This document shows, one piece after another, positions 1,450 to 41,749 of a DNA stretch of 64,000 bases. The stretch's first letter is position 1, and every line of letters begins with the position of its first letter. The position numbers and the translations under genes are program-made. Source of the stretch: Micrococcus porci (lineage in GTDB: Bacteria > Actinomycetota > Actinomycetes > Actinomycetales > Micrococcaceae); assembly GCF_020097155.1 (NCBI RefSeq), contig NZ_CP083691.1, forward strand, positions 1,302,001 to 1,366,000, given 5' to 3'. The notes under the pieces are model-generated. The model had not been told where the DNA came from. It made no database searches and worked only from the letters and a program-made list of their open reading frames with translations.

Positions 1450-1453
1450 GCGC

Positions 1454-2605: not shown

Positions 2606-2616
2606 GACGCACGGAC

Positions 2617-2646
2617 GACGGCGCCCCCGGCTCCGGGGGCGCCGTC
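2617..2646 (+). terminator. Terminator hairpin after dapC
   Basis: A perfect 14-bp GC stem (2617-2630 pairing with 2633-2646) with a 2-base loop lies 12 bases after the dapC stop and before the gltA promoter. There is no U-run, as is usual in such high-GC genomes. Confidence 0.75.
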
Positions 2647-2698
2647 CACGGCGCGGCCCCGCGGGTCCACCGGTGGCGTGCCGCCCGGCCCGACTGGG

Positions 2699-2704
2699 TA
2701 GAGT
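2699..2704 (+). promoter_or_regulatory. Probable -10 box of gltA (TAGAGT)
   Basis: TAGAGT sits 78 bases before the gltA start, downstream of the dapC terminator, giving gltA a leader of about 70 bases and a GAGGGAGA ribosome site. No clear -35 was seen. This contrasts with the leaderless arrangement of many other genes here. Confidence 0.45.
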
Positions 2705-2782
2705 GGAGAAGAATCGTCCCCGTGTGCGCGCCCAGTCCTGCGCGCCGCGGGCCCACCTGACAGGAAGACGAGGGAGACACCC

Positions 2783-4069: not shown

Positions 4070-4111
4070 CCGGGGCGCCGGGGCGCGCGCCCCGGACCCC
4101 GCCGACCGCGC

Positions 4112-4148
4112 GACGGCCCCCGCACCCGGACAGGGTGCGGGGGCCGTC
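4112..4148 (+). terminator. Bidirectional terminator between gltA and dapD
   Basis: A perfect 16-bp inverted repeat (4112-4127 with 4133-4148, loop GGACA) lies between the convergent 3' ends of gltA and dapD and can serve both strands. Confidence 0.85.
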
Positions 4149-4167
4149 GGCGTTCAGCTCAGGAGCG

Positions 4168-5130: not shown

Positions 5131-5137
5131 GCGCGTC

Positions 5138-5143
5138 AGACTA
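5138..5143 (-). promoter_or_regulatory. -10 box of dapD (TAGTCT), leaderless
   Basis: TAGTCT on the minus strand ends 7 bases before the dapD ATG, placing transcription start at or next to the start codon. Confidence 0.6.
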
Positions 5144-5188
5144 CCGACCCGCCCGTGCCGGGTCCGGTGCAGCGGCCCGCCCCGTCCG

Positions 5189-5194
5189 TAGGAT
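5189..5194 (+). promoter_or_regulatory. -10 box of dapE (TAGGAT), leaderless
   Basis: TAGGAT ends 7 bases before ATG 5202. This spacing decides for 5202 over the in-frame ATG at 5193, which lies inside the box. The AGGA within the box could also be read as a ribosome site. Confidence 0.55.
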
Positions 5195-5201
5195 GGACGC
5201 C

Positions 5202-6341
5202 ATGACCGACGCCGTCGCCCCCGTCCTGCCCGACCTCGCCGCCGCCGACCTCGACGTCGCCGCGCTGACCGCCACGCTGCTGGACGCGCCGTCGGTCTCC
5301 GACGACGAGGGCCCGCTCGCCGACGCCGTCGAGGCGGCGCTGGCCCGCCTGCCGCGGCTGGGCGTGCGGCGCTTCGGGGACGCGATCGTGGCCCGCACCG
5401 AGCTGGGCCTGCCCGGCCGGGTGATCCTCGCCGGCCACCTGGACACCGTGCCCCTGCCCACTGCGCCCGGAGCGCGCGGCACCGTCCCCTCCGCCTGGGA
5501 GGGGGACGTGCTCTACGGCCGTGGCGCCGTGGACATGAAGTCCGGCGTCGCCGTCCAGTTGGCCCTGGCCGGCCTGTTCGGACGGGCGGACGGCCCGGAC
5601 CCGGTCCACGACGTCACCTGGGTGTTCTACGACCACGAGGAGGTCGACTCCGCGCGGTCCGGCCTCGCCCGCATCGCCCGCCAGGCCCCGGAGCTGCTCG
5701 AGGGCGACTTCGCCGTGCTGCTCGAGCCCACGGACGGCGTCGTGGAGGGCGGCTGCAACGGCACCTGCCGGTACCGGGTGCGGTTCGAGGGGGTCGCCGC
5801 GCACTCCGGGCGCGCGTGGCGCGGGGACAACGCGATCCACAAGCTGGGCGCACTGCTGAGCGCCCTGGCCGCCTACGAGCCCGCCACCGTCACGGTGGAG
5901 GGGCTGGACTACCGCGAGGGCCTGAACGCCATCCGCGTGTCCGGGGGAGTGGCCGGCAACGTCATCCCCGACGCCGCGGCCACCGAGGTGAACTACCGGT
6001 TCGCCCCGGACAAGACCCTCGAGCAGGCGCACGCCCACGTCCGGGAGGTCTTCGCGGCCGCCGGCGTGGACTGGGACGCCCAGGTGGAGGTCACGGACGC
6101 CTCGCCCGCCGCCCGCCCGGGCCTGGACCGGCCCGCCGCCGCGGCCTTCGTGGCCGCCGTGGGCGGGGAGCCCATGCCCAAGTACGGCTGGACGGACGTC
6201 GCCCGCTTCTCCGAGCTCGGCGTGCCCGCCGTGAACTTCGGTCCCGGGGACGCCCTGCTCGCCCACACGGACGACGAACACGTGGAGCGTGCGGCCGTCG
6301 AGCGCTGCCGGGACGCCCTCGAGGCCTGGCTGCGGGGCTGA
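5202..6341 (+). CDS. dapE: Succinyl-diaminopimelate desuccinylase DapE
   Basis: A 379-residue M20-family zinc hydrolase that removes succinate from N-succinyl-LL-diaminopimelate to give LL-DAP. Motifs in order are AGHLDTVP (metal His, catalytic Asp), [10 protein letters not shown] (bridging Asp), FYDHEEVDS (catalytic and metal Glu) and a later HTDDEHV near the C-terminus. A dimerisation domain with the HSGRAW motif sits in the middle. The start at 5202 rather than 5193 is preferred because of the -10 position. The gene ends facing gluD, with a hairpin and an unusual G run between them. Confidence 0.94.
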
Positions 6342-6380
6342 GCCGCCGCCCTGTCATCCCTCCGCCCCCCGAGACGACCA

Positions 6381-6412
6381 CGGGCCGGGCGTCCGTGAGG
6401 AGACCCGGCCCG
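6381..6412 (+). terminator. Terminator hairpin after dapE
   Basis: A perfect 9-bp stem (6381-6389 with 6404-6412), 14-base loop, 40 bases after the dapE stop. It could also act for the convergent glu operon on the other strand. Confidence 0.6.
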
Positions 6413-6430
6413 CGGCGACGGAGACCCGTC

Positions 6431-6455
6431 GGGGGGGGGGGGGGGGGGGGGGGGG
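6431..6455. repeat. Homopolymer of 25 G
   Basis: Twenty-five consecutive G residues lie between the dapE terminator hairpin and the end of gluD. The run stops one base before the gluD stop codon, so on the coding strand gluD reads TGA, G, then 25 C. It is non-coding in every frame I would call real. Its length may be unreliable, since such tracts are prone to slippage and sequencing or assembly error. Confidence 0.9.
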
Positions 6456-6456
6456 C

Positions 6457-7338
6457 TCAGTCCTTCCCGATGGTCACGGCGGTCGAGCCGGCGTGGGGCT
6501 TCGTCCTCCCGGAGGTGCGGGAGGACAGTCGGCGGGAGAGCAGCGTGGCCAACCAGGTGAGCAGCATGTTGATCAGGATGAAGATCACGGCGGCCACCAC
6601 CAGCGTCTGCAGGATGTTGCCCTGGCCGGAGCCGAGCTGGCGGGCGTACTGCAGCAGCTCGAAGAAGCCGATCAGGTAGCCCAGCGCCGAGTCCTTGAGG
6701 ATCACCACGAACTGGCTCAGCAGGGACGGGAGCATGGCGACGAGCGCCTGCGGCACCTCCACGAGGCGCAGTGACTGGTTCGGCGTCATGCCGATCGCCG
6801 CGGCGGCCTCGCGCTGGCCCTTGGGCAGGCCCGTCACGCCGGACCGGACGAGCTCGGCGATGACGGAGCCGTTGTAGAGGGTCAGGCCCACGATCACGGC
6901 GTAGTACGGGCTGTCCGCGGCGTTGATCGCCCCGCCGCGGGCCGCCAGCGCGAACGCCTGGTAGAAGAAGACCATCATCACGAGGACGGGCACGGCCCGC
7001 AGGAACTCGACGACGACGGCCGCCAGCCACCGCACCGGCGCGACCGGCGCCAGGCGCAGGAAGCCGAACACCAGGCCGAACACCACCGAGGTGACCACGG
7101 CGATGCCCGCGGACTGCAGGGTGAACTGCAGGCCCGGCAGGTAGTAGTTGGTCCAGGCGTTGGCGTCGAGCGCGGCCAGCCAGCGGCGCGGCTCGAGCTG
7201 GCCGCGGTCCTGGAGCGCCATGCCGACGACGACGGCCACGGCCAGCACGAGGGCCAGGGCCACGAGGTTGACGATCAGGATGCGCCGCCGGGTCGCCGGA
7301 CCCGGGGCGTCGAACAGCACGGAGGCCTGCGCGCTCAT
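6457..7338 (-). CDS. gluD: Amino-acid ABC transporter permease (GluD-like)
   Basis: A 293-residue inner-membrane permease of the His/Glu/Gln/Arg/opine family. After a cytoplasmic head, a first membrane segment lies near residues 20-42, followed by a periplasmic loop and about four further segments. The EAA loop that contacts the ATPase is visible as GQREAAAAIGMTPNQSLRLVEVPQAL. It starts at ATG 7338, overlapping the gluC stop by 4 bp (ATGA), so the two permeases are translationally coupled and probably form a heterodimer. Glutamate as substrate is inferred from similarity of the cluster to Corynebacterium gluABCD and is not proven. Confidence 0.88.
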   Translation of the reverse strand: MSAQASVLFDAPGPATRRRILIVNLVALALVLAVAVVVGMALQDRGQLEPRRWLAALDANAWTNYYLPGLQFTLQSAGIAVVTSVVFGLVFGFLRLAPVAPVRWLAAVVVEFLRAVPVLVMMVFFYQAFALAARGGAINAADSPYYAVIVGLTLYNGSVIAELVRSGVTGLPKGQREAAAAIGMTPNQSLRLVEVPQALVAMLPSLLSQFVVILKDSALGYLIGFFELLQYARQLGSGQGNILQTLVVAAVIFILINMLLTWLATLLSRRLSSRTSGRTKPHAGSTAVTIGKD

Positions 7339-8015
7339 CGGCTCACCGCCCACTTGTCGGAGGCCCACGTGGTCAGCAGGCCGATCGGGATGACGATCAG
7401 GCAGAACCCGATCGCGATGGTCAGGAAGATCGCCACCATGGCGTCGGGCCGGAACTCGATCATGGTTTTCATCAGCCCGGAGGCCTCGGCCACGGACGCG
7501 GCGGCGGCCACGGTGGTGTTCTTGGTCAGGGCGATCACGGTGTTGCCGATCGGGGTGATCGCCCCGCGCAGGGCCTGCGGCAGGATCACCAGGCGGGCGG
7601 CGGGCAGGAAGCCCAGGCCGATCGCGCGGGCGGCCTCGGCCTGGCCCAGGGGCACCGTGTTCACGCCGGAGCGGATCGCCTCGCACATGAACGCCGCGTG
7701 GTACAGGGACAGGGCGAGCACGGCGTAGACGAAGAAGTTGACCTTGAAGTCCGGGGCGAACGTGACCTTCAGCTGGCCCCAGACCGCGAGCACGCCGATC
7801 AGCATGATGATGGTCAGCGGGGTGTTGCGCACGATGTGGACGTAGCCCGCTCCGACGGCCCGCAGGGAGGGCACGGGGGAGATGCGGCAGAGGGCGAGCA
7901 GCACGCCGAGGACGAAGGCGCCCAGGGTGGCGAGCGCGGCCAGCCGGATGTTCATCCAGAAGGCCTGCGGCACGGCGGCGCCGTACTGCTCGACGAGGGT
8001 GGACAGGGATTCCAT
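7335..8015 (-). CDS. gluC: Amino-acid ABC transporter permease (GluC-like)
   Basis: A 226-residue permease of the same family, with membrane segments starting near residue 25 (LAALATLGAFVLGVLLAL) and an EAA loop, GQAEAARAIGLGFLPAARLVILPQAL. The motif RNTPLTIIML before it is typical of HisM/GlnP-type subunits. It lies 90 bases downstream of gluB on the minus strand, behind a strong hairpin that probably lowers permease expression relative to the binding protein. Its stop overlaps the gluD start. Confidence 0.89.
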   Translation of the reverse strand: MESLSTLVEQYGAAVPQAFWMNIRLAALATLGAFVLGVLLALCRISPVPSLRAVGAGYVHIVRNTPLTIIMLIGVLAVWGQLKVTFAPDFKVNFFVYAVLALSLYHAAFMCEAIRSGVNTVPLGQAEAARAIGLGFLPAARLVILPQALRGAITPIGNTVIALTKNTTVAAAASVAEASGLMKTMIEFRPDAMVAIFLTIAIGFCLIVIPIGLLTTWASDKWAVSR

Positions 8016-8051
8016 GTCTCCTCCGGGGATCGGGAGCGGGTGCCAGACGAC

Positions 8052-8081
8052 GGCGGCGGCTCCGGTCTCGGAGCCGCCGCC
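8052..8081 (-). terminator. Intercistronic hairpin between gluB and gluC
   Basis: A perfect 13-bp stem (8052-8064 with 8069-8081, loop GTCT) sits between the gluB stop and the gluC start. Hairpins at this place in ABC importer operons commonly act as partial terminators or mRNA stabilisers, so that the binding protein is made in excess. That role is inferred. Confidence 0.65.
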
Positions 8082-8105
8082 GGCGCGTGGGGCGTCAGGA
8101 AGGGA

Positions 8106-8993
8106 TCAGGCGCAGGGCTCGAACTCGGCGTCGGCGCCGGAGTTCTTGTCCTCGGAGTACTCGTAACCGGTGCCCTCGGTGTTGGCCTTCAGGGACTTCT
8201 CCCACTCGCCGGAGTCCTTCATGGCCTTGATGGCCTCGTTGATGTCCTTGCACTTGTCCGAGCCCTTCTGCAGGCCGACGCCGTAGCGCTCGGTGGTGAA
8301 GGGCTGGCCGACGACCTTGAACTTGCCCTTGTTGGCGTCGGTCGCCGCGAGGCCGGCGAGGATGATGTCGTCCGTGGTCACGGCGTCCACCTGGCCGGAC
8401 TCCAGGTAGGTCACGCACTCCGCGTAGCCGCCCTGCTCGACCAGGTTCACGCCGGAGGCGTAGTTGTCCTTGATCTTCTGGGCGGAGGTCGAGCCGGTGA
8501 CGGAGCACAGGTTCTTGCCGTTGAGGGAGTCCGGGCCGGTGATCGAGGTGTCGTCCTGGCGGACCAGCAGGTCCTGGCCGGCCACGAAGTAGGGGCCGGC
8601 GAAGTCCACGCGCTGCTTGCGCGCGTCGGTGATGGAGTAGGTCGCGAAGATCATGTCGACCTCGCCGTTCTCCAGGGCGTTCTCGCGGTTCGCGGACGGG
8701 GTCTGGACCCACTCGATCTTGTCCTCGGCAACGCCGAGCTTGCCTGCCACGTAGCGGGCGACGTCGGTGTCGAAGCCGGTGGGCGCGTTCTGGCCCTCAC
8801 GGAAGCCGAGGCCCGGCTGGTCGTACTTGATGCCGATCCGGAGGGTGTCCGAGGAGCCGGACTGGGCGGCGGTCGAACCGGAGGCGGACGACGCGGAGCC
8901 CGAGCCGCCCGAGGAGGAGGGGGAGCAGGCGGAGAGGGACAGGGCCGCGGCGGCGGCCACCGCGGCGACGGAGAGGATGCGGGAACGGGCCAT
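8106..8993 (-). CDS. gluB: Glutamate-type substrate-binding lipoprotein (GluB-like)
   Basis: A 295-residue solute-binding protein of family 3. The N-terminus is a lipoprotein signal: basic MARSR, a hydrophobic alanine/leucine core and the lipobox LSAC, with Cys near residue 22 as lipidation site. A serine/glycine-rich linker of about 25 residues follows, as usual for surface lipoproteins, then the mature domain from SDTLRIGIKYDQPGLG. The motif DMIFATYSITDARKQRVDFAGPY is the family signature. ATG 8993 has AAGGAGT 5 bases upstream. Expressed with gluA upstream and gluCD downstream. Confidence 0.93.
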   Translation of the reverse strand: MARSRILSVAAVAAAAALSLSACSPSSSGGSGSASSASGSTAAQSGSSDTLRIGIKYDQPGLGFREGQNAPTGFDTDVARYVAGKLGVAEDKIEWVQTPSANRENALENGEVDMIFATYSITDARKQRVDFAGPYFVAGQDLLVRQDDTSITGPDSLNGKNLCSVTGSTSAQKIKDNYASGVNLVEQGGYAECVTYLESGQVDAVTTDDIILAGLAATDANKGKFKVVGQPFTTERYGVGLQKGSDKCKDINEAIKAMKDSGEWEKSLKANTEGTGYEYSEDKNSGADAEFEPCA

Positions 8994-9067
8994 GATGACT
9001 CCTTGGGTGCGGAGGGTGCTGACGGGGAGGGTGACGACGACGGCGCCCCGGTCGGGGCCGGCACGCG

Positions 9068-9880
<813 letters not shown>

Positions 9881-9887
9881 ACCCGGG

Positions 9888-9893
9888 AATATA
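9888..9893 (-). promoter_or_regulatory. -10 box of gluA (TATATT), leaderless
   Basis: TATATT on the minus strand, the most AT-rich box in the core part of the window, ends 7 bases before the gluA ATG. No TTGACA-like -35 is seen at 17 bases. Confidence 0.65.
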
Positions 9894-10019
9894 GCGCACG
9901 TCACACCTTGCGCCGCCCACCTGTTCGGTGGGGTGACCCACGAGCAGAGGACCGCCCGCGAATGGGGCACGGCGCCGGTCAGCCGCAGCGGGAGGCGTCC
10001 GGGGCGGGGCGCCCCTGAC

Positions 10020-10025
10020 TAGGCT
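10020..10025 (+). promoter_or_regulatory. -10 box of the LOG gene (TAGGCT), leaderless
   Basis: TAGGCT ends 6 bases before ATG 10032. Confidence 0.55.
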
Positions 10026-10031
10026 GGAACC

Positions 10032-10829
10032 ATGACCGACAAGCCCGATCCCGCCCGCGCGGACCGCGTGGACCGTCACCGCGTGCACCGCGGCGGCCAG
10101 ATCCTGCGGGGGGACGCGGCGGCGTCCCCCACCTTCGACCAGCTCCTGCTCGACGCGCGGCGGGCGCCGGCCGGGAAGACCCGTACGCCCTCGACCTCGT
10201 CCACCTCGGACGCCTGGCGGGTGCTGCGCATCCAGTCGGAGTTCGTCGAGGGGTTCGGCACGCTGGCGGACCTCGGGCCGGCGATCTCCGTGTTCGGCTC
10301 GGCCCGCACGGGTGAGGGCACGGACGAGTACGCGCTCGGCGTCGAGATCGGCCGTCGGCTGGCGGAGGAGGGCTGGGCCGTCATCACCGGCGGCGGGCCG
10401 GGGGCCATGGAGTCCGCGAACCGCGGCGCGGACGAGGCCGGCGGCGTGTCCGTCGGCCTGGGGATCGAGCTGCCGTTCGAGACCGGGCTGAACCCGTGGG
10501 TCGGGATCGGGGTGGACTTCCGCTACTTCTTCGCCCGCAAGGTCATGTTCCTGCGCTACGCCCAGGGGTTCGTCGTCCTGCCCGGCGGGTTCGGGACGCT
10601 GGACGAGCTCTTCGAGGCTCTCACCCTGGTCCAGACCGGGACGGTCACCCGCTTCCCCGTGGTGCTCGTGGGCACGGAGTTCTGGGGGCCGCTCGTGGAC
10701 TGGATCCGCGGCACCCTGACGGCGCGCGGCATGATCTCGCCGGGGGACGCGGACCTCATCACGGTGGTGGACACGGCCGAGGAGGCCGTGGCCCACGTCA
10801 GCGCGACGTGCGGGGGTGCCCGCGCATGA
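10032..10829 (+). CDS. LOG-family (TIGR00730) Rossmann-fold nucleotide hydrolase
   Basis: A 265-residue protein of the lysine-decarboxylase-like LOG family, members of which cleave cytokinin riboside 5'-monophosphates or similar nucleotides to base and ribose 5-phosphate. The diagnostic PGGFGTLDELFEALTLVQTG motif, with its Glu, is present, preceded by VITGGGPGAMESANRGADEAGG for nucleotide binding. About 75 N-terminal residues precede the Rossmann core (ISVFGSARTGEG), with conserved-looking QSEFVEGFGTL. The stop overlaps the ATG of the next gene by 4 bp. The physiological substrate is unknown. Confidence 0.9.
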   Translation: MTDKPDPARADRVDRHRVHRGGQILRGDAAASPTFDQLLLDARRAPAGKTRTPSTSSTSDAWRVLRIQSEFVEGFGTLADLGPAISVFGSARTGEGTDEYALGVEIGRRLAEEGWAVITGGGPGAMESANRGADEAGGVSVGLGIELPFETGLNPWVGIGVDFRYFFARKVMFLRYAQGFVVLPGGFGTLDELFEALTLVQTGTVTRFPVVLVGTEFWGPLVDWIRGTLTARGMISPGDADLITVVDTAEEAVAHVSATCGGARA

Positions 10830-11143
10830 CGCAGCCGATCTGGATCGCCGTCCTCGTCGTGGCCGTCGTCGCCGTCGCCGCGCTGGCGGCCGCCGCCCTG
10901 GGCCGCGCCCTGCCCCGGCCCGCCGACCCCGCAGGGCAGGCCCCGCCCCACCCGGTGCTGCTGCCGGAGCACCCGCGCGCCGCCGACGTCGACCGCCTGC
11001 GGCTGGCCACGGCGGTGCCCGGCTACCAGCGGGATCAGGTCGATGAGGTGCTCGCCCGGCTGCGGGCGGCGCTCGCCGCCGACGAGGAGCGCATCGCCGC
11101 CCTGGAGGCCCGCCTGGGCGAGGGGGACGGCGTCGGGCGGTGA
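10826..11143 (+). CDS. Small DivIVA-domain membrane protein
   Basis: A 105-residue protein with one N-terminal membrane helix (about residues 5-25, IWIAVLVVAVVAVAALAAAAL), a proline-rich linker and a C-terminal DivIVA-type segment, FxLATAVPGYQRDQVDEVL-like, followed by a short coiled coil (LRAALAADEERIAALEARLG). DivIVA domains recognise curved membrane or self-assemble. Such small proteins lie beside LOG and DUF3117 genes in mycobacteria and Arthrobacter, which supports the call. Translation is coupled to the LOG gene by an ATGA overlap. Function is not established. Confidence 0.78.
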   Translation: MTQPIWIAVLVVAVVAVAALAAAALGRALPRPADPAGQAPPHPVLLPEHPRAADVDRLRLATAVPGYQRDQVDEVLARLRAALAADEERIAALEARLGEGDGVGR

Positions 11144-11299
11144 TGGCGCACGGCGGCTCGTTTGGCGCGGCCCCGCCGGATCCGCGATAATGGCTGTGTG
11201 TCCCGTCACGCGCGCCACCGACGCGCGGGGGCGGGACGACCTCTGACACGTGGCACGGTCCGCGCGTCTGATTCGCGAAGCCAGAGAAGGGAAGTCGCA

Positions 11300-11470
11300 A
11301 TGGCCGCCATGAAGCCCCGCACCGGGGACGGTCCCATGGAAGTGACCAAGGAGGGCCGCAGCCTCATCATGCGCGTCCCGATCGACGGCGGCGGACGCCT
11401 GGTCCTGGAGATCAACGCCGACGAGGCCAAGGAGCTCCAGCAGTGCCTCGAGGGCGTCACCCAGGCCTGA
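11300..11470 (+). CDS. DUF3117 family protein
   Basis: A 56-residue protein conserved across Actinobacteria. The sequence MKPRTGDGPMEVTKEGRS followed by IMRVPIDGGGRLVLEI is the family hallmark, and the acidic/alanine C-terminal helix contains ADEAKELQQCLEG. ATG 11300 has AGAAGGGAAG about 8 bases upstream. Function unknown. It is single-copy and always small in the family, so the length is normal. A strong bidirectional hairpin follows. Confidence 0.92.
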   Translation: MAAMKPRTGDGPMEVTKEGRSLIMRVPIDGGGRLVLEINADEAKELQQCLEGVTQA

Positions 11471-11491
11471 GCCCGGCCCCGCGCGCACGAC

Positions 11492-11523
11492 ACGGCCCCC
11501 GCACCGCACGGTGCGGGGGCCGT
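11492..11523 (+). terminator. Bidirectional terminator between DUF3117 and O-methyltransferase
   Basis: A perfect 15-bp inverted repeat (11492-11506 with 11509-11523), minimal loop, between convergent genes. Its arm resembles the gltA/dapD terminator arm, a favoured terminator sequence in this genome. Confidence 0.85.
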
Positions 11524-11550
11524 TCCGTGTCCGGACGGGGAGGCGCCGGT

Positions 11551-12201
11551 TCAGCGGCGCACGGCCAGCAGGACCCCCGTGCCCGTGGGGACCACGGCCG
11601 AGACCCACGCCTCGTCCTCCCGGACCAGGCGGTCGACGTCCCGGGCGGAGACGGTGGAGTCCTCCCGGACCGCCGCGCGCGGCACGCGGTCCGAGTCCAG
11701 GGCGTCGACGACCACCAGCAGCCCGCCGGGGGCGAGCATGCGGGCCGCCTGCTCCACGTCGAAGGCCCGGGAGGCGGGCTCGCCGTCCACCACGACCATC
11801 TCGTACGCGCCCGTGGTGAGGCGGGGGAGGACCAGGCGGGAGCGGCCCGAGATCATGCGCGTCCGGCTGGTGGGCAGGTGCGCCTCGGAGAAGGCCTCGC
11901 GGGCGGCGCGCTGGGCCTCGGCGTCGGGGTCCACCGTGGTGAGCACGGTGCGCTCCGGCAGCCCGCGCATCAGCGCGAGCCCCGAGACGCCGGCGCCGGT
12001 ACCGATCTCGACGACGGCCGAAGGCGCCCGGGTGGCCGCCAGGACGGTGAGCAGCGCCGACGTCCCCTCGCCGACCGCACGGACGCCCAGCTCCGCGGAG
12101 CGCTCCCGGGCGCGCAGCAGGACCTCGGACTCCGCGGTGCGGGCCTCGGCCCACGCCCAGGAGGCGTGCTTGTCGGTGGGCTGGGGATGCAGGGCGCTCA
12201 T
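11551..12201 (-). CDS. O-methyltransferase family 3 (Rv1220c-like)
   Basis: A 216-residue SAM-dependent methyltransferase related to catechol/caffeoyl-CoA O-methyltransferases. SAM-binding motif VVEIGTGAGVSGLALMRGLP is near residue 65, followed by LTTVDPDAEAQ and the metal-site-like VVDGEPASRAFDVEQAARMLAPGG. In mycobacteria and Arthrobacter this gene lies divergent from sigE-rseA, as here it lies divergent from the anti-sigma-like gene, but no sigma factor gene fits in the 117 bp between them. ATG 12201 is the only convincing start. Substrate unknown. Confidence 0.88.
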   Translation of the reverse strand: MSALHPQPTDKHASWAWAEARTAESEVLLRARERSAELGVRAVGEGTSALLTVLAATRAPSAVVEIGTGAGVSGLALMRGLPERTVLTTVDPDAEAQRAAREAFSEAHLPTSRTRMISGRSRLVLPRLTTGAYEMVVVDGEPASRAFDVEQAARMLAPGGLLVVVDALDSDRVPRAAVREDSTVSARDVDRLVREDEAWVSAVVPTGTGVLLAVRR

Positions 12202-12318
12202 GGGGACCTCGGAGTCGGCGGTCGGAGGCGGCGGCTGCCCCTCCGGGGGCGGGGCCAGTGTACGGAATCCGGGCGCGGCGCCGGGGGACGGTCCAGCCTC
12301 CTCCCAGGTGCGGTGGCC

Positions 12319-13296
12319 ATGATGGAGGCCATCACGAGCGCACCGGCCCCGCGGACCCCTCCAGCCCCGCGACGGCCCGGCCGAGGAGACGAGGAGGTGG
12401 GGGTGCTGGCACGAGGACACTGCCTGCCCGTGCTCGACTCCTACCTGGAGGGCGTGCTGGCCCCCCGGGCGTCCCGCCGGGTGGAGGCCCACCTGTCCCG
12501 CTGCCCCGACTGCCGGGCGGTGGCCGGCCAGCGGGCCCGGGTGCTGGACGCGGCCCGGTCCGTGGACGCCCGCCCGGCGGCCGGTGCCGTCATGCGTCCC
12601 CGGGGCGTCTCCGGGCGGGCGGTCGTCTGCGGCCTCCTGGTGCTCGTCGTCCTCGCGGGGTTGGTCGCGGCCGTCTGGATGCTGGGCGGGCCGGCCTCCA
12701 CGGCCGCCCCGGCCGACGTCGACCCCGTCCGGGCGGTCAGCGCGCCCGTCAGTGCGAGCGCGGACGAGGACGACGTGGCGACCCGCGTGGACGAGCTGCG
12801 CGGCCAGGGCTGGGCCCTGCCGTCCCTCTCCGCCTCCGGGATGCGCCCGCTGTCCGTGCACGCGGACCGCGTGGGGGAGGCCGCGGAGGTCTCCGTCGCC
12901 TGGGGTCGCACGAGCCCGGTCGTCACCGTCCGGGAGTGCCGCGGGGCGGACGCGGACGAGCGCACCCGGTGCGCCCGCCAGGGTGGGGTGGGGGTGTCCG
13001 GAGCGAGCGAGGCCCGGCTCCCCGTGGGCATGGACTACCGCATCGCCGACCACGCCGACGGCGGCTGGGAGGCGTGGCTGAGCACGTCGGACGCCGTCTA
13101 CCGGGTGGACGCCTCCGTGCCCCGGTCCCAGGCGGAGGCGCTGCTGAGCCAGCTCGTCGTCGTCGAGCGCTCGGGGCTGGCCCCGCCCCGCCGCGACGAG
13201 GATCCCCGCGACCGGCTGGAGCGCGGTCTGGACCGCCTCCTGGACGGCCGCGTGGGCGGCGCGGCCGTGCGGAACCCGGCCGCGGGCGCCCGGTGA
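12319..13296 (+). CDS. Putative zinc-finger anti-sigma-type membrane protein (RseA position)
   Basis: A protein of up to 325 residues. An HxxxCxxC zinc-finger anti-sigma motif (HLSRCPDC) is near residues 58-65, followed by a single membrane segment near residues 100-120 (VVCGLLVLVVLAGLVAAVWML) and an extracytoplasmic domain of about 200 residues. Starts at 12319 or 12322 (two ATGs) are possible; a later GTG after GAGGAGG near 12395 would also keep the finger. In relatives the gene here is rseA, directly after sigE, and before tatB. sigE is missing from this locus, so its partner must be encoded elsewhere or be lost. Confidence 0.75.
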   Translation: MMEAITSAPAPRTPPAPRRPGRGDEEVGVLARGHCLPVLDSYLEGVLAPRASRRVEAHLSRCPDCRAVAGQRARVLDAARSVDARPAAGAVMRPRGVSGRAVVCGLLVLVVLAGLVAAVWMLGGPASTAAPADVDPVRAVSAPVSASADEDDVATRVDELRGQGWALPSLSASGMRPLSVHADRVGEAAEVSVAWGRTSPVVTVRECRGADADERTRCARQGGVGVSGASEARLPVGMDYRIADHADGGWEAWLSTSDAVYRVDASVPRSQAEALLSQLVVVERSGLAPPRRDEDPRDRLERGLDRLLDGRVGGAAVRNPAAGAR

Positions 13297-13304
13297 GCGT
13301 CTAG

Positions 13305-13310
13305 TAGAGT
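13305..13310 (+). promoter_or_regulatory. -10 box of tatB (TAGAGT), leaderless
   Basis: TAGAGT ends 7 bases before GTG 13318, so tatB has its own promoter in the 21-bp gap after the anti-sigma-like gene. Confidence 0.6.
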
Positions 13311-13317
13311 CACGAGC

Positions 13318-13977
13318 GTGTTTGGCATCAACGGCTCCGAGCTGATCGTCCTGATCGTCCTGGCCTTCGTGGTCCTCGGGCCGGAGAAGCTCCCCGAGTA
13401 CACCCGCGCCCTGGCACAGGGCATCCGCAAGACCCGGGACATGGCCGAGGGCGCCAAGACGCAGTTCAAGGAGGAGACCGGGACGGACTTCGACTCCGTG
13501 GACTGGCGCAGGTACGACCCCCGCCAGTACGACCCCCGCCGGATCATCCGCGACGCGCTCCGCGAGCCGGCCGACGGTTCCACGGCCGCGGCCCGCGCGC
13601 AGGAGCTGACCGGCGTGGCCGCCGAGGACCTGCAAGGCGGCCTCTCCGCCCAGGACCTGCGGGACATGGACCCCCGCTCGCTGTTCCGCCGCCCCTCGGG
13701 CGACGGCAGCACGGCCGCCCCGGCAGGCGGGGGCGCCTCGGCGCCGTCCGACGCCCCCACCCCGGAGGACGTCCCCTCCGCCGCGGTCCCCGTGGCGGCC
13801 GCGTCCCCTTCCCCGGCCGGGGCCGCCGCCGCCGGCGTCGCGGCCGCCCTCCTGGCCTCCGGACGCGCCGAGGAGGTCCTCACGGACCCGGCCCCGCTGC
13901 AGCACCTGGGCACCGACCCGGATCCCCTCGACCTGCTCGGCAAGGCCCCGGCGCCGTTCGACGTCGACGCCACCTGA
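13318..13977 (+). CDS. tatB: Sec-independent protein translocase subunit TatB
   Basis: A 219-residue TatB, part of the twin-arginine receptor complex with TatC. The N-terminus has the short membrane helix (about residues 5-21), ending in the family hallmark GPEKLPEY, then an amphipathic helix (ALAQGIRKTRDMAEGAKTQF). The C-terminal half is a disordered alanine/proline/acidic region, longer than in enterobacteria and common in actinobacteria. tatA and tatC are not in this window. The exported protein at 39726-40316 has a Tat-type signal and may be a client. Confidence 0.93.
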   Translation: MFGINGSELIVLIVLAFVVLGPEKLPEYTRALAQGIRKTRDMAEGAKTQFKEETGTDFDSVDWRRYDPRQYDPRRIIRDALREPADGSTAAARAQELTGVAAEDLQGGLSAQDLRDMDPRSLFRRPSGDGSTAAPAGGGASAPSDAPTPEDVPSAAVPVAAASPSPAGAAAAGVAAALLASGRAEEVLTDPAPLQHLGTDPDPLDLLGKAPAPFDVDAT

Positions 13978-14004
13978 GCGCCCGCCCCTCCGGGCCCCGC
14001 CCGG

Positions 14005-15153
14005 TCAGCGAGGGCTGACGGGGAGCCCGCGCCCGCGCAGGCTCCCGGGGCGCACCGCCAGCCGAGCGGCGACCTCCTGCAGGGCCGCGGCCGCCGGGCT
14101 CTCCGGCGCGGAGACGACCACGGGCTCGCCCGCGTCGCCCCCGCGGCGCAGCGCCGGGTCCAGGGGCACGGTGCCCAGCAGCGGCACCGACGTGCCCAGC
14201 GCGCCGGAGAGCCGGTCCGCGACCTCCTGGCCGCCGCCGGCGCCGAAGACGTCCAGCACGGTGCCGTCCGGCAGGGCCATCGGCCCCATGTTCTCCACGA
14301 CGCCGGCGACCCGCTGACCGGTCTGCGCCGCCAGCTGACCGGCCCGCGCGGCCACCTGCGCGGCGGCGTGCTGCGGGGTGGTCACCACCACGAGCTCCGA
14401 GGCCGGCAGCAGCTGCGCCGTCGAGATGGCGATGTCCCCGGTGCCCGGGGGCAGGTCCACGAGGAGCACGTCCAGGTCCCCCCAGTGCACGTCCGTGACG
14501 AACTGCTCGAGCGCGCGGTGCAGCATGGGCCCGCGCCAGGCCACCGGCCGGTCCGCGTCCAGGAACATGCCGATCGAGATGACCTTCACGCCCCGCGAGA
14601 CGGGCGGCAGGATCAGCTCACCCACGCGTGTGGGGGAGGCCTGGACGCCGAGCAGGCCCGGGATGGAGTAGCCGTGCACGTCCGCGTCGATCAGCCCCAC
14701 GGACAGTCCCCGGCCGGCCAGCGCGACCGCCAGGTTGGCCGTGACCGTGGACTTGCCGACGCCGCCCTTGCCCGAGGCGACCGCGAGGACGCGGGTGAGC
14801 GAGTCCTCCGCGAAGGGGTTCGCGGGGCGTGCCCCGCGCAGCGCCTCCTGGAGGGCGGCACGCTCGGTGGGGGTCATCACGCCCAGGCGCACGTCCACGC
14901 CGGCGCACCCCGGCACGTCCGCGACGGCGGCGGCCACGTCCGCCTGGATGGTCCCCTTCAGGGGACACCCGGCGATGGTCAGCAGCACCTCGACGGCCAC
15001 ATGGCCCCCGCCGGTCTCCGCCACGGAGCGGACCATGCCGAGCTCCGTGATCGGCCGGCGGATCTCCGGGTCGACCACGCCGTCGAGAGCCGCGAGGACC
15101 GCAGCCTCCAGAGGGGTCCGCACCTCCGGGCGGGGCAGGGCCGGGGCGCTCAC
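14005..15153 (-). CDS. mrp: Mrp/NBP35-family ATPase (Fe-S carrier type)
   Basis: A 382-residue protein with an N-terminal MIP18/DUF59 domain (AALDGVVDPEIRRPITELGM) and a C-terminal P-loop ATPase with deviant Walker A, VASGKGGVGKSTVTANLA. The family loads or stores iron-sulfur clusters. Here the region VVENMGPMALPDG, where many Mrp proteins have a CxxC cluster motif, contains no cysteine, as seen directly; the carrier role is therefore uncertain. The gene overlaps the DUF1003 gene upstream by 4 bp and belongs to the conserved tatB-mrp-DUF1003-MgtE/CBS block. Confidence 0.92.
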   Translation of the reverse strand: MSAPALPRPEVRTPLEAAVLAALDGVVDPEIRRPITELGMVRSVAETGGGHVAVEVLLTIAGCPLKGTIQADVAAAVADVPGCAGVDVRLGVMTPTERAALQEALRGARPANPFAEDSLTRVLAVASGKGGVGKSTVTANLAVALAGRGLSVGLIDADVHGYSIPGLLGVQASPTRVGELILPPVSRGVKVISIGMFLDADRPVAWRGPMLHRALEQFVTDVHWGDLDVLLVDLPPGTGDIAISTAQLLPASELVVVTTPQHAAAQVAARAGQLAAQTGQRVAGVVENMGPMALPDGTVLDVFGAGGGQEVADRLSGALGTSVPLLGTVPLDPALRRGGDAGEPVVVSAPESPAAAALQEVAARLAVRPGSLRGRGLPVSPR

Positions 15154-37558: not shown

Positions 37559-37569
37559 CACAAACGACC
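37559..37569 (+). repeat. 11-bp direct repeat, copy 2 (CACAAACGACC)
   Basis: Second copy of the repeat at 36807-36817, located 112 bases before the next gene. Confidence 0.35.
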
Positions 37570-37680
37570 CTTTCGGGCAGAGACGTGGAAACTCCGTCTC
37601 GGGGCCAGCAGAGTAGGGAAGGGGCCTGGCACCGCGGATCTGGCCCTCGACAGTGTCTGGAGGCCGGGGAGGAGGGGCCG

Positions 37681-38814
37681 ATGAAGGCGAGTGTGCAGGA
37701 CCTGCTGCCCGGCCCGCGTGGGCGGCGTCTGTGTCTGGAGGCGGCGAGGATGCTCAGCCACCGGGTCGCCGATCTGGTGTTCTGGCTGGGCTATGAGCTG
37801 GATCCGGACCGGGGCATCTCCTCCCTGGTCATGTGGCCCCCGGGCGGCGGTGCCCTGGAGGCGGGCGCGCGTCCTGCCGTGTCCATCGATCAGGTGGCGC
37901 AAGCCTTGGCCGACCTCGACCTCTCGGGCCTGACGGATGGGGTGGTCCAGGCGGCCCTGGTCGGTTCGGTCATGTCGGCCCGGTACTGGCAGGAGCCCGA
38001 CGGCGAAGACGTGCTCGCCGGCCATCCGGACATCCACGCCGCCCTGGAGGCGGTGGCCGCGGGCGTGCTGGGCTCGGCGGCGGCCCGGCACTGGGGGAGT
38101 CCGCGCGCAGCGGCGCAGTGGGTCATCGACTGGCGTGCGTTCGAGGATCCGGCCCCGGTGCCCCGGGACGCTCGACGGGTCCTGGCGGCCTGGGCTCGAG
38201 AAGAACGGCGGCAGGAAGTCCGGGCCGCCGCTGAGCATCCTGTTGATCCGACGGCGAACTTCTCCGGGACCTGGTGGTCCATCCCGCAGGGGGCCGTCGT
38301 CAGCGTCGGGCAGATCCCGACTGGGTTGGACCTCGTCGAGGACGACATCGGCGCGGAGGCGGCCACGGTGATCCCGGTGCGGGGAGCGGGTCGGACGTAT
38401 GAGGTCCGCGGCCCCGGGGACTGGATCCGGCTGTGCCGGCGGTTCCCGCTGGAGGTCAGTGCCTCGCGGCGGCACGACTGGTACCGGGTGACCGGACGGT
38501 CCGGGCGGTGGGTCATCCCGGACTGGGAGCAGGTCGCCTCCGAGTGGGACGCGGTGCACCTGACCACCTTGGGCTATCTCAGCGCGGCCACCCGCGCTCT
38601 GCCCGTGGAGGCGGGCGTGGCCACGGTGCTCGCCGGGTGGGACCCGGACACCACCGTGTGGCTCGCCGACGCGGTCCGTGAGTCGGAGGAGCCCCGCCAA
38701 TGCTGGCAGCGCGTATCCGGCGACGACGGATGGGCCCGTTGCGTGCCCGTCCGTGATGTCGGCTCGGAGGGCCCCGCGCGGGGACGCGGGGCCAGCCCGC
38801 CGGTGGAGGGGTGA
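37681..38814 (+). CDS. Hypothetical protein (377 residues)
   Basis: I do not recognise a family. ATG 37681 follows a strong GGAGGAGGGG ribosome site. The sequence is soluble and globular, with tryptophan-rich segments in the C-terminal half (FSGTWWSIPQGAVV, WYRVTGRSGRWVIPDWEQVA, LAGWDPDTTVWLADA). The N-terminal half is helical and alanine-rich. No signal peptide or membrane helix is seen. Its stop overlaps by 4 bp the start of a second unknown gene, so the two are co-expressed. They lie directly upstream of the AT-rich islet in the variable region between hemD and hemB. Confidence 0.7.
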   Translation: MKASVQDLLPGPRGRRLCLEAARMLSHRVADLVFWLGYELDPDRGISSLVMWPPGGGALEAGARPAVSIDQVAQALADLDLSGLTDGVVQAALVGSVMSARYWQEPDGEDVLAGHPDIHAALEAVAAGVLGSAAARHWGSPRAAAQWVIDWRAFEDPAPVPRDARRVLAAWAREERRQEVRAAAEHPVDPTANFSGTWWSIPQGAVVSVGQIPTGLDLVEDDIGAEAATVIPVRGAGRTYEVRGPGDWIRLCRRFPLEVSASRRHDWYRVTGRSGRWVIPDWEQVASEWDAVHLTTLGYLSAATRALPVEAGVATVLAGWDPDTTVWLADAVRESEEPRQCWQRVSGDDGWARCVPVRDVGSEGPARGRGASPPVEG

Positions 38815-39185
38815 GCGGGCGTGGGCCTTCTGCGTCGGGCCAGATGCCTTCCACGGAGGCTGTGCTCAGCATCCTTCGGCGTCTGGAGCGGCGTCACTTC
38901 AGCCGTGATGCGTATGCGCGGTTGCTTGACGCCGACGTGACCGGGGAGGTGCTCACGGTGGTGGCCTGGCAGGGGGGTCCGTCCCCGTCGGACCCGGAGC
39001 GGGTGATCGCCCACCGCACGGACCTGCGCCAGCGTCTGACCGAGTGCCGTGGCGATCTCGAGGCGGTGCTGATGGATGCGTTGCAGTTCGGTGTGTACGA
39101 ACCAAGCTCGCCGGGCAGGCCGCCGGCGGGGGATGAGCCTGCCCGGCTGCTGGAGAAGTATCCCGAGGCCACCTGGTACGAGTGA
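38811..39185 (+). CDS. Hypothetical protein coupled to the preceding gene
   Basis: A 124-residue unknown protein from GTG 38811, whose GTGA overlaps the upstream stop; ATG 38844 gives a shorter alternative. It is predicted mostly helical (STEAVLSILRRLERRHFSRD, HRTDLRQRLTECRGDLEAVL). No motif is recognised. The C-terminus ends in EKYPEATWYE. Pairing with the 377-residue protein suggests a two-component function, which cannot be named. Confidence 0.65.
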   Translation: MSGRGPSASGQMPSTEAVLSILRRLERRHFSRDAYARLLDADVTGEVLTVVAWQGGPSPSDPERVIAHRTDLRQRLTECRGDLEAVLMDALQFGVYEPSSPGRPPAGDEPARLLEKYPEATWYE

Positions 39186-39221
39186 GGAAGCTGGAGCGAC
39201 GCGCGGCAGCATCTGGTCAGC

Positions 39222-39240
39222 GTCCAGGCGGGTATACCCC
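39222..39240 (+). repeat. 19-bp direct repeat, left copy, with palindromic core
   Basis: GTCCAGGCGGGTATACCCC, identical to 40511-40529. It contains the perfect 10-bp palindrome GGGTATACCC. It marks the left edge of the AT-rich islet and could be a recombination site or the target repeat left by insertion. Confidence 0.8.
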
Positions 39241-39251
39241 CGATTGCGCTG

Positions 39252-39320
39252 AGCCCCTTTACGTCCACTTCAGGAAGTGGGCCAGTCTCAAGCGAGGGTG
39301 GCCCACATCAGCGAGCAGAG
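39252..39320 (+). other. Possible insertion-sequence end remnant
   Basis: This stretch has a 7-bp hairpin, CCACTTC-AG-GAAGTGG, and two related arms, AGTGGGCCAGT and GGTGGCCCACATCAG. Repeated GTGGCCCA boxes resemble the multiple terminal repeats of IS21-family elements. No transposase gene or remnant is present in the window, so this is a weak call. Confidence 0.3.
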
Positions 39321-39410
39321 AATGAGCGGGCGCTGGATGTGTCGGGGAGACCCCTCGCGCTCATGCGTTGCGCCTCCGTGTAGACGTATGACATCTACGC
39401 GCCGAGGCTT

Positions 39411-39587
39411 TTAATGAGGGGTATTGCGATATTTGAAAGTCGACAAAATAAGAGCGACACCCGCAATCCCTAGCAGGCTTCCGGCAACTCTCCCAAATAG
39501 TTCCGAATTAATAAACCCCCCCATAAAAAAAGCTATCCCCAAAAGGATGAATGCAAATCCAAAAATTACATTCTGAAAACGATTCAT
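39411..39587 (-). CDS. Small two-helix membrane protein (58 residues), possible immunity protein
   Basis: Read by eye on the minus strand from ATG 39587 to TAA 39411. The product starts MNRFQNVIFGFAFILLGIAF and has a second hydrophobic stretch, RVAGSLLGIAGVALILSTF, with a short polar turn between (GGFINSEL) and a basic end, KYRNTPH. This is a typical helix-turn-helix in the membrane. Codon use is AT-rich, unlike the chromosome. The ribosome site is weak. It is downstream of, and co-directional with, the exported protein at 39726-40316, separated by a strong hairpin. Small two-helix proteins in this place are often immunity proteins of bacteriocins; that role is inference. Confidence 0.55.
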   Translation of the reverse strand: MNRFQNVIFGFAFILLGIAFFMGGFINSELFGRVAGSLLGIAGVALILSTFKYRNTPH

Positions 39588-39659
39588 GAAACTAGTTACA
39601 CCGCCCGAGTGAAATTACAATAATAGTATCTTGGCAAGATTTATAAGGGTCTCCATACG

Positions 39660-39710
39660 AGTAAGAGCTATGCCCCGCTGCGCGATTTGACGTGGGGCAT
39701 AGCTCTTACT
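39660..39710 (-). terminator. Strong hairpin after the exported-protein gene
   Basis: A perfect 17-bp stem (39660-39676 with 39694-39710) with a 17-base loop, 16 bases beyond the stop of the minus-strand gene. No U-run follows on that strand, so it may terminate only partly and allow some reading into the small membrane gene. Confidence 0.7.
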
Positions 39711-39725
39711 TCCTTGATTCAAGTC

Positions 39726-40316
39726 TTAGCGACCCATAGCTTCGCGGCACGTCTGCAGAAAGCCTAGGCCGACCAAGGCGGCGCCCAGTTCGAGAATCTC
39801 CCTCTCGGCTGTACGAGTAGATATATTTCGGGCGCCAGCAAGGATTCGGGCAACCTTGGTAGCACCATACTTGTTCACGAGCCTAACAAGTCGTGCTGCA
39901 AGCGCTGCAACGCGAACAGTGGGGAAGACGGTGCCCCCGACGAAGAGCAGAATCTCCCCTGCGCACTTTGCCGTTTCGACCCATCCCAGGGCAGAAACCT
40001 CATTCTCCGAGTGAGATGTCTGCTCATTTGAAATGGACTCAAACTCTGCGTTTACATCTTCAACAGCGCGCTTAGCCTTGATCAAATCCGCGCTTGAAAA
40101 AGTGTATCCCGTCACTTTCCCATTCGGATCCTGGACTTCGAGAATCTTCATGGAAGAATCGATGGCGACCGTGCGGCCCCGGCGCAGACCCGGCGGGAGG
40201 TCGGTCGCAGGCCCGGCCATTGCAGGAGTCGCGGTCATGGTGAGCCCGGCAGAAATAATTGCCGCAGAACTCAGCTTGATGACTGAACGACGACTCGCCT
40301 TATTGATATCCGTCAC
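39726..40316 (-). CDS. Exported protein with Tat-type signal and amphipathic C-terminal helices; bacteriocin-like candidate
   Basis: A 196-residue protein from GTG 40316, with GGAGGAATC directly before it. Residues 1-34 are a signal peptide with twin arginines (SRRSVIKLSS), a hydrophobic core and an AMA cleavage site at 34/35. Residues 35 to about 105 are hydrophilic (propeptide-like). From about 110 there are alternating hydrophobic and basic helices (EILLFVGGTVFP, AALAARLVRLVNKYGATKVA), bounded by the only two mature cysteines, 118 and 190, which could form a disulfide. GC content is well below the chromosome. I do not recognise a named family. With the following two-helix protein it resembles a secreted membrane-active peptide plus immunity pair; this is a hypothesis. 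Confidence 0.65.
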   Translation of the reverse strand: MTDINKASRRSVIKLSSAAIISAGLTMTATPAMAGPATDLPPGLRRGRTVAIDSSMKILEVQDPNGKVTGYTFSSADLIKAKRAVEDVNAEFESISNEQTSHSENEVSALGWVETAKCAGEILLFVGGTVFPTVRVAALAARLVRLVNKYGATKVARILAGARNISTRTAEREILELGAALVGLGFLQTCREAMGR

Positions 40317-40510
40317 GATTCCTCCAGGTGCTTGCCCTCTAGTTGTCGCTGAGAGGCTGCTTGTCCATCATGATGCCGGTCGGCTACGCGGGTGCTCTGA
40401 TCATCGACTGTGATCGAGCAATGCAAGCATACAGCAATGTGTTGTGCGTTACCTAGCCAGGATGCTGTTGCGCGACCTGGAAGTGCAGTCCTCCTCCCCC
40501 GAGGAACTCT

Positions 40511-40529
40511 GTCCAGGCGGGTATACCCC
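40511..40529 (+). repeat. 19-bp direct repeat, right copy, with palindromic core
   Basis: Identical to 39222-39240, in the same orientation, 1,289 bp further on and 88 bp upstream of the serine recombinase gene. Confidence 0.8.
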
Positions 40530-40569
40530 TTTACACGCCTCGCCCACCCACGAGAGCATCACGTCAGAG

Positions 40570-40615
40570 ACGGTCCTAAGCGGGACCGTTGGACATAAGT
40601 GTCGGAGGGTCTTAG
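40570..40615 (+). promoter_or_regulatory. Possible res-type recombination site
   Basis: Clustered inverted repeats directly before the recombinase gene: ACGGTCC-taagcg-GGACCGT (40570-40589), GACA-taag-TGTC (40592-40603) and GTC-tta-GAC just after. Serine resolvases bind arrays of such sites next to their own gene. The site consensus is not matched exactly. Confidence 0.35.
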
Positions 40616-40617
40616 AC

Positions 40618-40962
40618 ATGGTTGGACAGACGGTGGCCTATGTGCGGGTGAGCTCGGCCGAGCAGAACCTGGATCGGCAGCTGGAGGCGGTGGGGGAGTG
40701 CGACCGGATCTTCGAAGACAAGATCTCCGGCAGCTCCCGCGCCAAACGCACCGGGCTGGCGGAGCTGCTGGGGTACGTGCGGGAGGGGGACCTGGTGAAG
40801 GTCGCCTCGATGGATCGGTTGGGACGGGACACCCGGGATCTGTACGCGATCGTGGATGAGCTCACGGATAAGGGGTGTGCGGTGCAGTTTGTGTCCGAGC
40901 GGATCACCGTGGACAAGTCCGGCACCTCCCCGGTGGACCCCACATCGAGGACCCCACGGTAA
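40618..40962 (+). pseudogene. Serine recombinase (resolvase/invertase), truncated
   Basis: The 114-residue product has the N-terminal catalytic domain of the resolvase/invertase family: VAYVRVSSAEQNLDRQL with the nucleophilic serine, FEDKISGSSRAKRTGLAELL, and VASMDRLGRDTRDLYAIVDEL with catalytic arginines. It runs normally to DKSGTSPVDP and then stops after a few unrelated residues. The family is about 190 residues and ends in a long helix and a DNA-binding helix-turn-helix; both are missing. The 3' break abuts the remnant GNAT gene, so this is a deletion or insertion junction. Confidence 0.85.
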
Positions 40963-41190: not shown

Positions 41191-41706
41191 TCACCCGCCC
41201 CGCTGCGTCCCTGTGCGGGGTCGGAATCCCAGCCGCCGGTAGATGCCCATGGCCGCCTCGGAGGTGCCCTCGCCGAAGCGCAGGCTCACGGCCGCGTCGC
41301 CGGCGGCGGAGCAGGTGTCGACGGCGTGCTGCACCAGGGCGCGCCCGACCCCCTTCCCGCGCACGGCGGGATCGGTGAAGAGGTCGATGATGAACGGACC
41401 CGCGAGGTCCGCGTCCCAGATCGAGCGGGTGACCACCATGATCGCCCCGGCCAGGCGCCCGTCCACCCATGCCGTGGCACTCGCGTCGGCGCGCAGCTCC
41501 CCGTAGTCGCCGCGGAAGGTCGCGTCCATCTCCTCGCGCGCTTCAGCCAGGCCGGAGGCGGCGACGCCGGGCGGGTAGCCCATGAGGTAGCACCGGGCCA
41601 GGTCGTCGGTCGTCCCGGTGTCCAGTCCTCGGAACTCGAAGTCTCCGCGGACATGGTCGGCGGCGTGGGCCGCCGGCAGGCGGAGCGTCAGCAGGTCGGT
41701 GGACAC
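41191..41706 (-). CDS. GNAT-family N-acetyltransferase
   Basis: A 171-residue acetyltransferase. The acetyl-CoA motif is FTDPAVRGKGVGRALVQHAV, followed by SLRFGEGTSEAAMGIYRRLGF. GTG 41706 is chosen because AGAGGA lies 8 bases upstream; an ATG 30 bases earlier has no ribosome site. It is last of three same-strand genes (GNAT, O-methyltransferase, GNAT) that form a probable operon. Substrate unknown. Confidence 0.85.
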   Translation of the reverse strand: MSTDLLTLRLPAAHAADHVRGDFEFRGLDTGTTDDLARCYLMGYPPGVAASGLAEAREEMDATFRGDYGELRADASATAWVDGRLAGAIMVVTRSIWDADLAGPFIIDLFTDPAVRGKGVGRALVQHAVDTCSAAGDAAVSLRFGEGTSEAAMGIYRRLGFRPRTGTQRGG

Positions 41707-41749
41707 GGGGGTTCCTCTCGTCAGGGCGGGGTGCATCCCTGCCGTTCGA

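Follow-up and report, generated by a model that had tools for sequence, protein, structure and literature searches.

A probable bacteriocin and immunity gene pair on a candidate resolvase-exchanged cassette in Micrococcus porci

Results

An AT-rich islet with two genes

The window, the 64,000-nucleotide stretch of Micrococcus porci DNA analysed here, corresponds to positions 1302001-1366000 of contig NZ_CP083691.1 (G000:C1). The genome consists of a single contig of 2,648,900 bases. The positions below are those of the window unless another sequence is named. The G+C content is 74.8% over the whole window and 53.7% in a 1.27 kb segment at 39241-40510, referred to as the cassette body. Among 1195 other overlapping segments of the same length (1270 bp) the minimum was 65.3%. 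An earlier note, made from the letters of this DNA, had described an AT-rich block here, and the composition bears this out. The block as delimited there, 39222-40529, coincides precisely with the outer ends of two perfect 19-bp direct repeats, GTCCAGGCGGGTATACCCC, at 39222-39240 and 40511-40529. These repeats bound the islet and are not mentioned in that note. A search of the 2.65-Mb genome that allowed up to three mismatches gave 5 matches to the 19-mer and 0 to the reversed pattern.

The two credible genes of the islet, A and B, lie on the minus strand with 138 nt between them and point away from the resolvase gene that borders the islet. Gene A (39726-40316) has a GTG start preceded by GGAGG and encodes a 196-residue protein, probably exported and a likely bacteriocin precursor. 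The sequence SRRSVIK occupies residues 8-14, a cleavage motif AMA|G lies at 34/35, and C118 and C190 are the sole cysteines; they bracket a basic C-terminal domain that is predicted to be helical. The length, the twin arginine, the cleavage motif and the cysteines all agree with the earlier description. The Tat signal claimed there is plausible, with the RR motif and AxA visible, and profile TIGR01409 scores 13.1 bits, below its cut-off of 16.7. Profile searches placed neither A nor B in a known family above cut-off, no sequence match was found in the PDB, and neither protein resembles a transposase.

The AlphaFold model of A, built from a 7-row alignment, is of moderate confidence (mean pLDDT 64.7). 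It contains three strands and one helix at residues 45-99 (block mean pLDDT 65-91), followed by five helices at 106-195 (block means 50-83). The C-terminal domain was modelled worse alone (pLDDT 58.3). A Foldseek search with the model of A produced no PDB match at E <= 0.001, and the EntV structure 7roa was not among the 50 matches listed for these low-confidence models.

Gene B (39411-39587) encodes 58 residues with hydrophobic segments at 7-23 and 34-50. It is the two-helix membrane protein that had been proposed downstream of A on the same strand, and it is a likely immunity protein. Between the two genes, at 39660-39710 on the minus strand, is the perfect 17-bp hairpin that had also been reported. 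The arms, 39660-39676 and 39694-39710, form 17/17 pairs around a 17-nt loop, and the structure begins 15 nt past A. The RNA fold is stable (-41.1 kcal/mol, z -3.0). A search for terminator-like sites with a T run gave none, and the hairpin, which lacks such a run, is possibly a terminator or attenuator.

Relatives of A and the conserved pairing

Seven relatives of A were identified in Micrococcus, Rothia, Brachybacterium and one other family, with 30-43% identity where full length. The whole-genome search found G004 (43% identity), G323, G339, G730, G466 and G569, and in G162 a fragment of A is present at two contig ends. A scan of named genomes generated 4 loci, in Micrococcus lacusdianchii, Brachybacterium paraconglomeratum, Rothia santali and a Rothia MAG, which appear to correspond to G004, G730, G323 and G339, respectively. 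The gene is rare: 5/395 genomes of the family (4 plus one fragment), 4/396 of the order and 1/394 of the class, where each count includes the M. porci genome itself and the three samples overlap.

A check set beforehand was whether the two genes co-occur in other genomes. They do: 7/7 relatives have a small membrane-protein ORF at the same position, downstream of A on the same strand. The partner ORF has two predicted helices in 5/7 relatives, three in L013 and four in L042. A fixed criterion was then applied, namely an ORF encoding 50-130 aa and two or more helices that starts between 40 nt before and 250 nt after the stop of A. It was passed by 6/7 relatives, and by 7/7 (adding L042) once the permitted overlap was raised to 70 nt. 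For comparison, the criterion was applied to the remaining ORFs of 150 aa or more from the window and six plasmid loci, of which 1/347 had such a partner (0/156 in the window); this control is rough since many of the counted ORFs will not be genes, and the raw count was 2/348 at either overlap setting, one of the two being A/B itself.

B diverges fast. In a 13-sequence set phmmer gave 3e-6 and 3e-5 for two partners, the only scores below 1e-4, and 0.007 or worse for the others. In A, both cysteines are invariant in 7/7 aligned rows (the window and six relatives, with the G162 fragment left out). The segment from cysteine to cysteine is 73-74 residues long and basic, with 9-10 K+R vs 3-4 D+E in the six rows computed. 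The RR motif is present in 5/6 rows with an intact N-terminus.

Several relatives have unusual surroundings. In G569 (L043, 1495-2022) the 5' part of A has been replaced by other sequence and the small partner ORF is retained, as expected if immunity outlives the bacteriocin. In Brachybacterium (L041) the pair is flanked by two very similar aldo-keto reductase ORFs (302-1363 and 2581-3543), so it may have arrived there in a different way. Two contigs of one genome of the Rothia relatives' genus (L014 and G162:C93) start within gene A, an indication that the copy is repeated. Similar multi-helix membrane proteins lie on both sides of gene A in L042 (1167-2478).

Comparison of A and B with EntV-type bacteriocins

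A 153-aa protein of Corynebacterium jeikeium plasmid pK64 (L106, 7288-7749) matches the EntV structure 7roa at 3.9e-4, and we infer that it is corynicin JK (ypkK). Its plasmid relatives include one Lactococcus plasmid, two Bacillus plasmids and S. pyogenes pDN571, which we take to be the streptococcin A-M57 (SA-M57) plasmid. Five comparators were taken out of 13 records of this EntV/SA-M57 group. In 5/5 a signal was recognised by eye and two C-terminal cysteines span 62-65 residues. A two-helix ORF of 57-73 aa lies just downstream in 5/5; two of these ORFs are annotated genes and three were picked from ORF lists. On C. jeikeium plasmids (L103, 6404-8199; L106, 4121-7973) a resolvase-family gene is likewise found no more than a few kb from the EntV-like gene and its partner.

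Passages of PMC9562342 and PMC6606811 describe EntV as a 170-aa precursor that has to be cut to a C-terminal 68-aa form and requires a C106-C167 disulfide. PMC8308785 names M. luteus as one of the targets of A-M57 and mentions the proposal that A-M57 acts like dysgalacticin, on glucose uptake and membrane potential.

The A/B pair resembles EntV, SA-M57 and corynicin JK in having a plausible signal, a presumed N-terminal pro-part, a basic C-terminus, predicted to be helical, between two cysteines and a small two-helix ORF directly downstream. From this layout and the conserved pairing, A and B are probably a bacteriocin and its immunity protein. This had been the earlier reading of the islet; the pairing and layout lend it partial support, whereas the poor conservation of B and the lack of sequence homology to a known bacteriocin do not.

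The two proteins could also be a secreted protein and membrane partner that do something else; A might, for instance, be an envelope protein or a processed signal, and B its anchor or receptor. Such a role would suit the strands in the N-terminal domain of A and the lack of a known family above cut-off or PDB sequence match, and no protease or transporter ORF was recognised in the ORF list of the islet. It fits poorly with the sporadic occurrence, the fast divergence of B, the foreign composition and the basic, cysteine-bracketed helical end in a layout like that of SA-M57-type bacteriocins, and we consider it rather unlikely.

The order of parts, the cysteine positions, the charge and the small partner might reflect true but very distant homology of A to EntV, SA-M57 and corynicin JK. 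The profile comparisons argue against this. An hhalign of the A family against the EntV/SA-M57 family profile had a probability of 0.1% and detected no homology, and hmmsearch in both directions was marginal, with one 0.005 match in a 7-sequence set that falls in the signal region. The N-terminal domain of EntV consists of three helices, whereas strands are predicted for A. The cysteines of A are 73-74 residues apart rather than 62-65, and the Tat-like RR motif is a further difference. Homology of A to the EntV group is unlikely. Because no sequence homology was detectable, A and B are treated as a separate family, one that by analogy may work alike.

A resolvase and its res region beside the islet

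The right-hand repeat (40511-40529, plus strand) is the start of a res region, at the position of site I, and the res continuation beyond it is shared with other places. It begins 107 bp ahead of the ATG of a serine resolvase gene. The remaining res region (40530-40617, plus strand) is 87-91% identical to that of six Micrococcus plasmids. The resolvase itself (40618-40962, plus strand) is a truncated 114-aa ORF. Its homology stops at 40938 and it lacks the helix-turn-helix (HTH) domain. It matches Pfam Resolvase at 7.1e-24, and residues 1-102 of an intact 187-aa homologue at 96%. Two near-full-length copies are present in the same genome, one of them with Resolvase and HTH_7 confirmed, as for the copy on pLMA7.

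The segment 40511-40938 occurs in six Micrococcus plasmids (87-91% identity over 94-95% of the query) and in many chromosomal places. A seventh plasmid record, from Dietzia, matches 18% of the segment. Twenty-four other matches in the genus touch res or resolvase. 19/24 start within 10 bases of the repeat start and 5/24 further inside; the latter are one res split by a transposon, two resolvase fragments and two copies in G008 (about 76 bp inside, and outside the site table). Elsewhere in the M. porci genome (L068, G000:C1:704500-724000), a Tn402/Tn5053-like element at 1437-14162 apparently splits another res copy of the same resolvase. It contains an rve/Mu-C transposase (4936-6327) and an AAA protein (4127-4936), and appears to be a res-site hunter in Micrococcus.

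The empty site and the swapped modules

The left-hand site (39222-39240, plus strand) reads GTCCAGGC|GGGTAT|ACCCC, with its left half from the flank and its right half from the cassette. The cassette body is missing from an otherwise matching plasmid locus (L080). On M. luteus plasmid NZ_CP043850.1 the left flank, which is shared with the window over 37565-39240 (plus strand, 94.8%), is followed directly at the same site by res and resolvase, with no islet. The right flank, a GNAT gene region at 41223-41721, is 90% identical to the plasmid and 86-87% identical to G007 and G008. In these two genomes 134 bp separate the left flank (to 39185) from the right flank (from 41218), with neither islet nor resolvase in between. 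Because no further copy of the cassette was found elsewhere, the mobility of the islet itself rests on one empty site.

Plasmids pLMA7 and pJD12 provide two rearranged modules at the same kind of site. Both have the resolvase at the right, and their common left context is 98.3% identical over the 414 bases preceding the exchange. Between these, pLMA7 carries a TetR-MFS module and then an Nramp-regulator module, and pJD12 carries them in the opposite order. The TetR-MFS modules are 99.8% identical and the Nramp-regulator modules 99.5%. The left halves of the sites, GTCCAGTC, GTCAAGCC and GTCCAAGG, each keep their association with the DNA on their left. For the right halves, ACCCACTAGG, GCCAGAAGCG and ACCCCTTTAC, the same is true of the DNA on their right. 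Since the half-sites keep to their own side, the exchange is confined to the 6 bp GGGTAT. On pCW.Ay a third left half lies ahead of the same Nramp module.

The central AT of the palindrome GGGTATACCC falls within GGGTAT. Serine resolvases cleave the central 2 bp of site I, according to the relevant portion of PMC12217951, so the position of this AT inside the exchange interval is, as judged from the sequences, as expected for a serine resolvase. We therefore regard the block as very probably a cassette exchanged at a resolvase-type site.

Homologous recombination within conserved res regions might have swapped the modules, with the sites just marking where homology starts. Res and resolvase are 85-92% identical among most copies, which makes such crossovers possible. 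However, no res is present at the internal sites of pLMA7 and pJD12; there the common part is the short site alone, with a 6-bp exchange interval at each, and this explanation is improbable. Ordinary insertion by a transposon, an integrated element or illegitimate recombination, with the 19-bp repeats as a target-site duplication, would account for AT-rich foreign DNA flanked by direct repeats but is highly improbable, since A and B are unlike a transposase, the site is already there on the empty plasmid and is met again at the boundaries of other modules, its half-sites segregating independently, and the swapped modules had already weakened it.

Survey of the sites

In all, 31 sites were recorded over 24 loci that were picked because a site or resolvase had already been found there. 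22/31 run into the same res and 9/31 into other DNA; ahead of the 22 there are 15 different left flanks. Compared over up to 414 bp, these flanks comprise 4 groups and 11 single ones. A string, TAGGGTGTGTCTGAGAAACC, recurs with close variants in the left flank ahead of several sites. This string may represent the end of an IS, in which case the 15 flanks are perhaps not all independent. The sites come from a motif filter with limited mismatches, which misses more diverged sites such as the one at 6199 in L069. The L151 site may be a chance match.

A res-side pattern, GGGTATACCCCTTTACAC, was searched with at most one mismatch and found in 11/375 genomes of the family, in 2/32 genera; the reversed control was found in 1. 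The second genus has four loci. At one of them (L166) a resolvase of 72% identity lies within reach, and none is seen at the other three. Five of the seven loci of A relatives were scanned (L013 and L014 were left out), and none of the five contains a site. At L141 (G006:C61) the left flank of the window (76% over 90 bp) precedes a site at 171, and the next site, with res, is at 13106. The 13 kb between them are perhaps a larger insertion at the same place.

Discussion

The reading that we favor is that the islet is a cassette exchanged by a resolvase-type reaction and that its cargo is a bacteriocin with its immunity protein. For both parts together we estimate a probability of roughly 0.57. 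The cassette would have entered the res of a small Tn3-type serine resolvase via site-specific exchange at GGGTAT. The neighboring copy of the resolvase is truncated, and other copies could act in trans. Protein A would leave the cell by the Tat or the Sec pathway. The beta/helix part at its N-terminus would presumably be a pro-region, and the basic helical C-terminal domain, closed by a C118-C190 disulfide, would presumably be freed by a protease and attack the membrane of neighboring bacteria. Protein B would shield the producer. The resolvase as agent, the disulfide, processing, killing and immunity are what we infer; what can be read directly from the sequences are the genes and their conserved pairing, the invariant cysteines, the sites, the empty site and the swapped modules.

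If this is true, the cargo represents a new bacteriocin family of Micrococcus, Rothia and Brachybacterium, whose members are secreted, contain a disulfide and are paired with immunity proteins in the membrane. The short site (GTCCANNNGGGTATRCC) would make such cassettes findable by a simple pattern search.

Resolvases are usually viewed as enzymes that tidy up cointegrates. Kholodii (2001) reportedly described resolvase-mediated shuffling. Res-dependent exchange of DNA segments by resolvases is already known (PMC9501444, section 2.6). The system described here shares with Tn3-type resolvase/res systems a small serine resolvase with an HTH domain, a res just upstream, a probable central 2-bp exchange (here confined to GGGTAT) and the movement of segments between replicons. 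Catalytic and HTH domains are both present in the two intact copies scanned, and the window copy is without HTH. The site 107 bp before the ATG lies where the distal crossover site of a res of ~100-120 bp should be. The present system differs from those in that modules of 1.3-2.9 kb are bounded by short crossover-like sites, and in that two modules are stacked beside the resolvase in pLMA7 and pJD12. The titles and abstract openings that were covered, a set with most subscription journals outside it, yielded no description of resolvase cassette arrays, and a word search of the pJD12 announcement returned none of resolvase, recombinase, transpos-, Nramp or cassette. Shuffling by resolvases is known, and within the literature covered cassette arrays at resolvase sites seem to be an undescribed variant.

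Two other systems are similar in part. The pdif modules of Acinetobacter are small plasmid-borne gene modules enclosed by short recombination sites, on which the host XerC/XerD are believed to act (PMC9501444, section 2.6), whereas here the site is followed by a dedicated resolvase gene. The Tn402/Tn5053 res-site hunters likewise target res regions, with one apparent case in this genome, but they have transposition genes of their own and none was recognised in the islet.

A further parallel is the integron, in which cassettes sit at a fixed site beside a recombinase gene, their order can change, and half-sites travel along. In the same way, the islet occupies a fixed site with a recombinase gene as its neighbor, the modules can be re-ordered, and half-sites move with the cassette. 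A serine-resolvase counterpart of the integron would exist in Micrococcus, and perhaps in a second genus of the family, if the resident resolvase and res gather GGGTAT-core half-site cassettes into re-orderable arrays on plasmids and chromosomes. The cargo would be metal transport, efflux, and bacteriocin with immunity, and the islet would be one captured cassette with a new bacteriocin family. We judge the chances of this broader proposal to be evenly balanced. If resolvases do gather and re-order cassettes as well, actinobacteria have an integron-like route for accessory genes. Integrons, like pdif modules, depend on tyrosine recombinases. Beside the site here lies a recombinase of the serine resolvase family and no integron-type tyrosine integrase, and the sites are short and palindromic. 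The genes here stand in either orientation, so they presumably have their own promoters.
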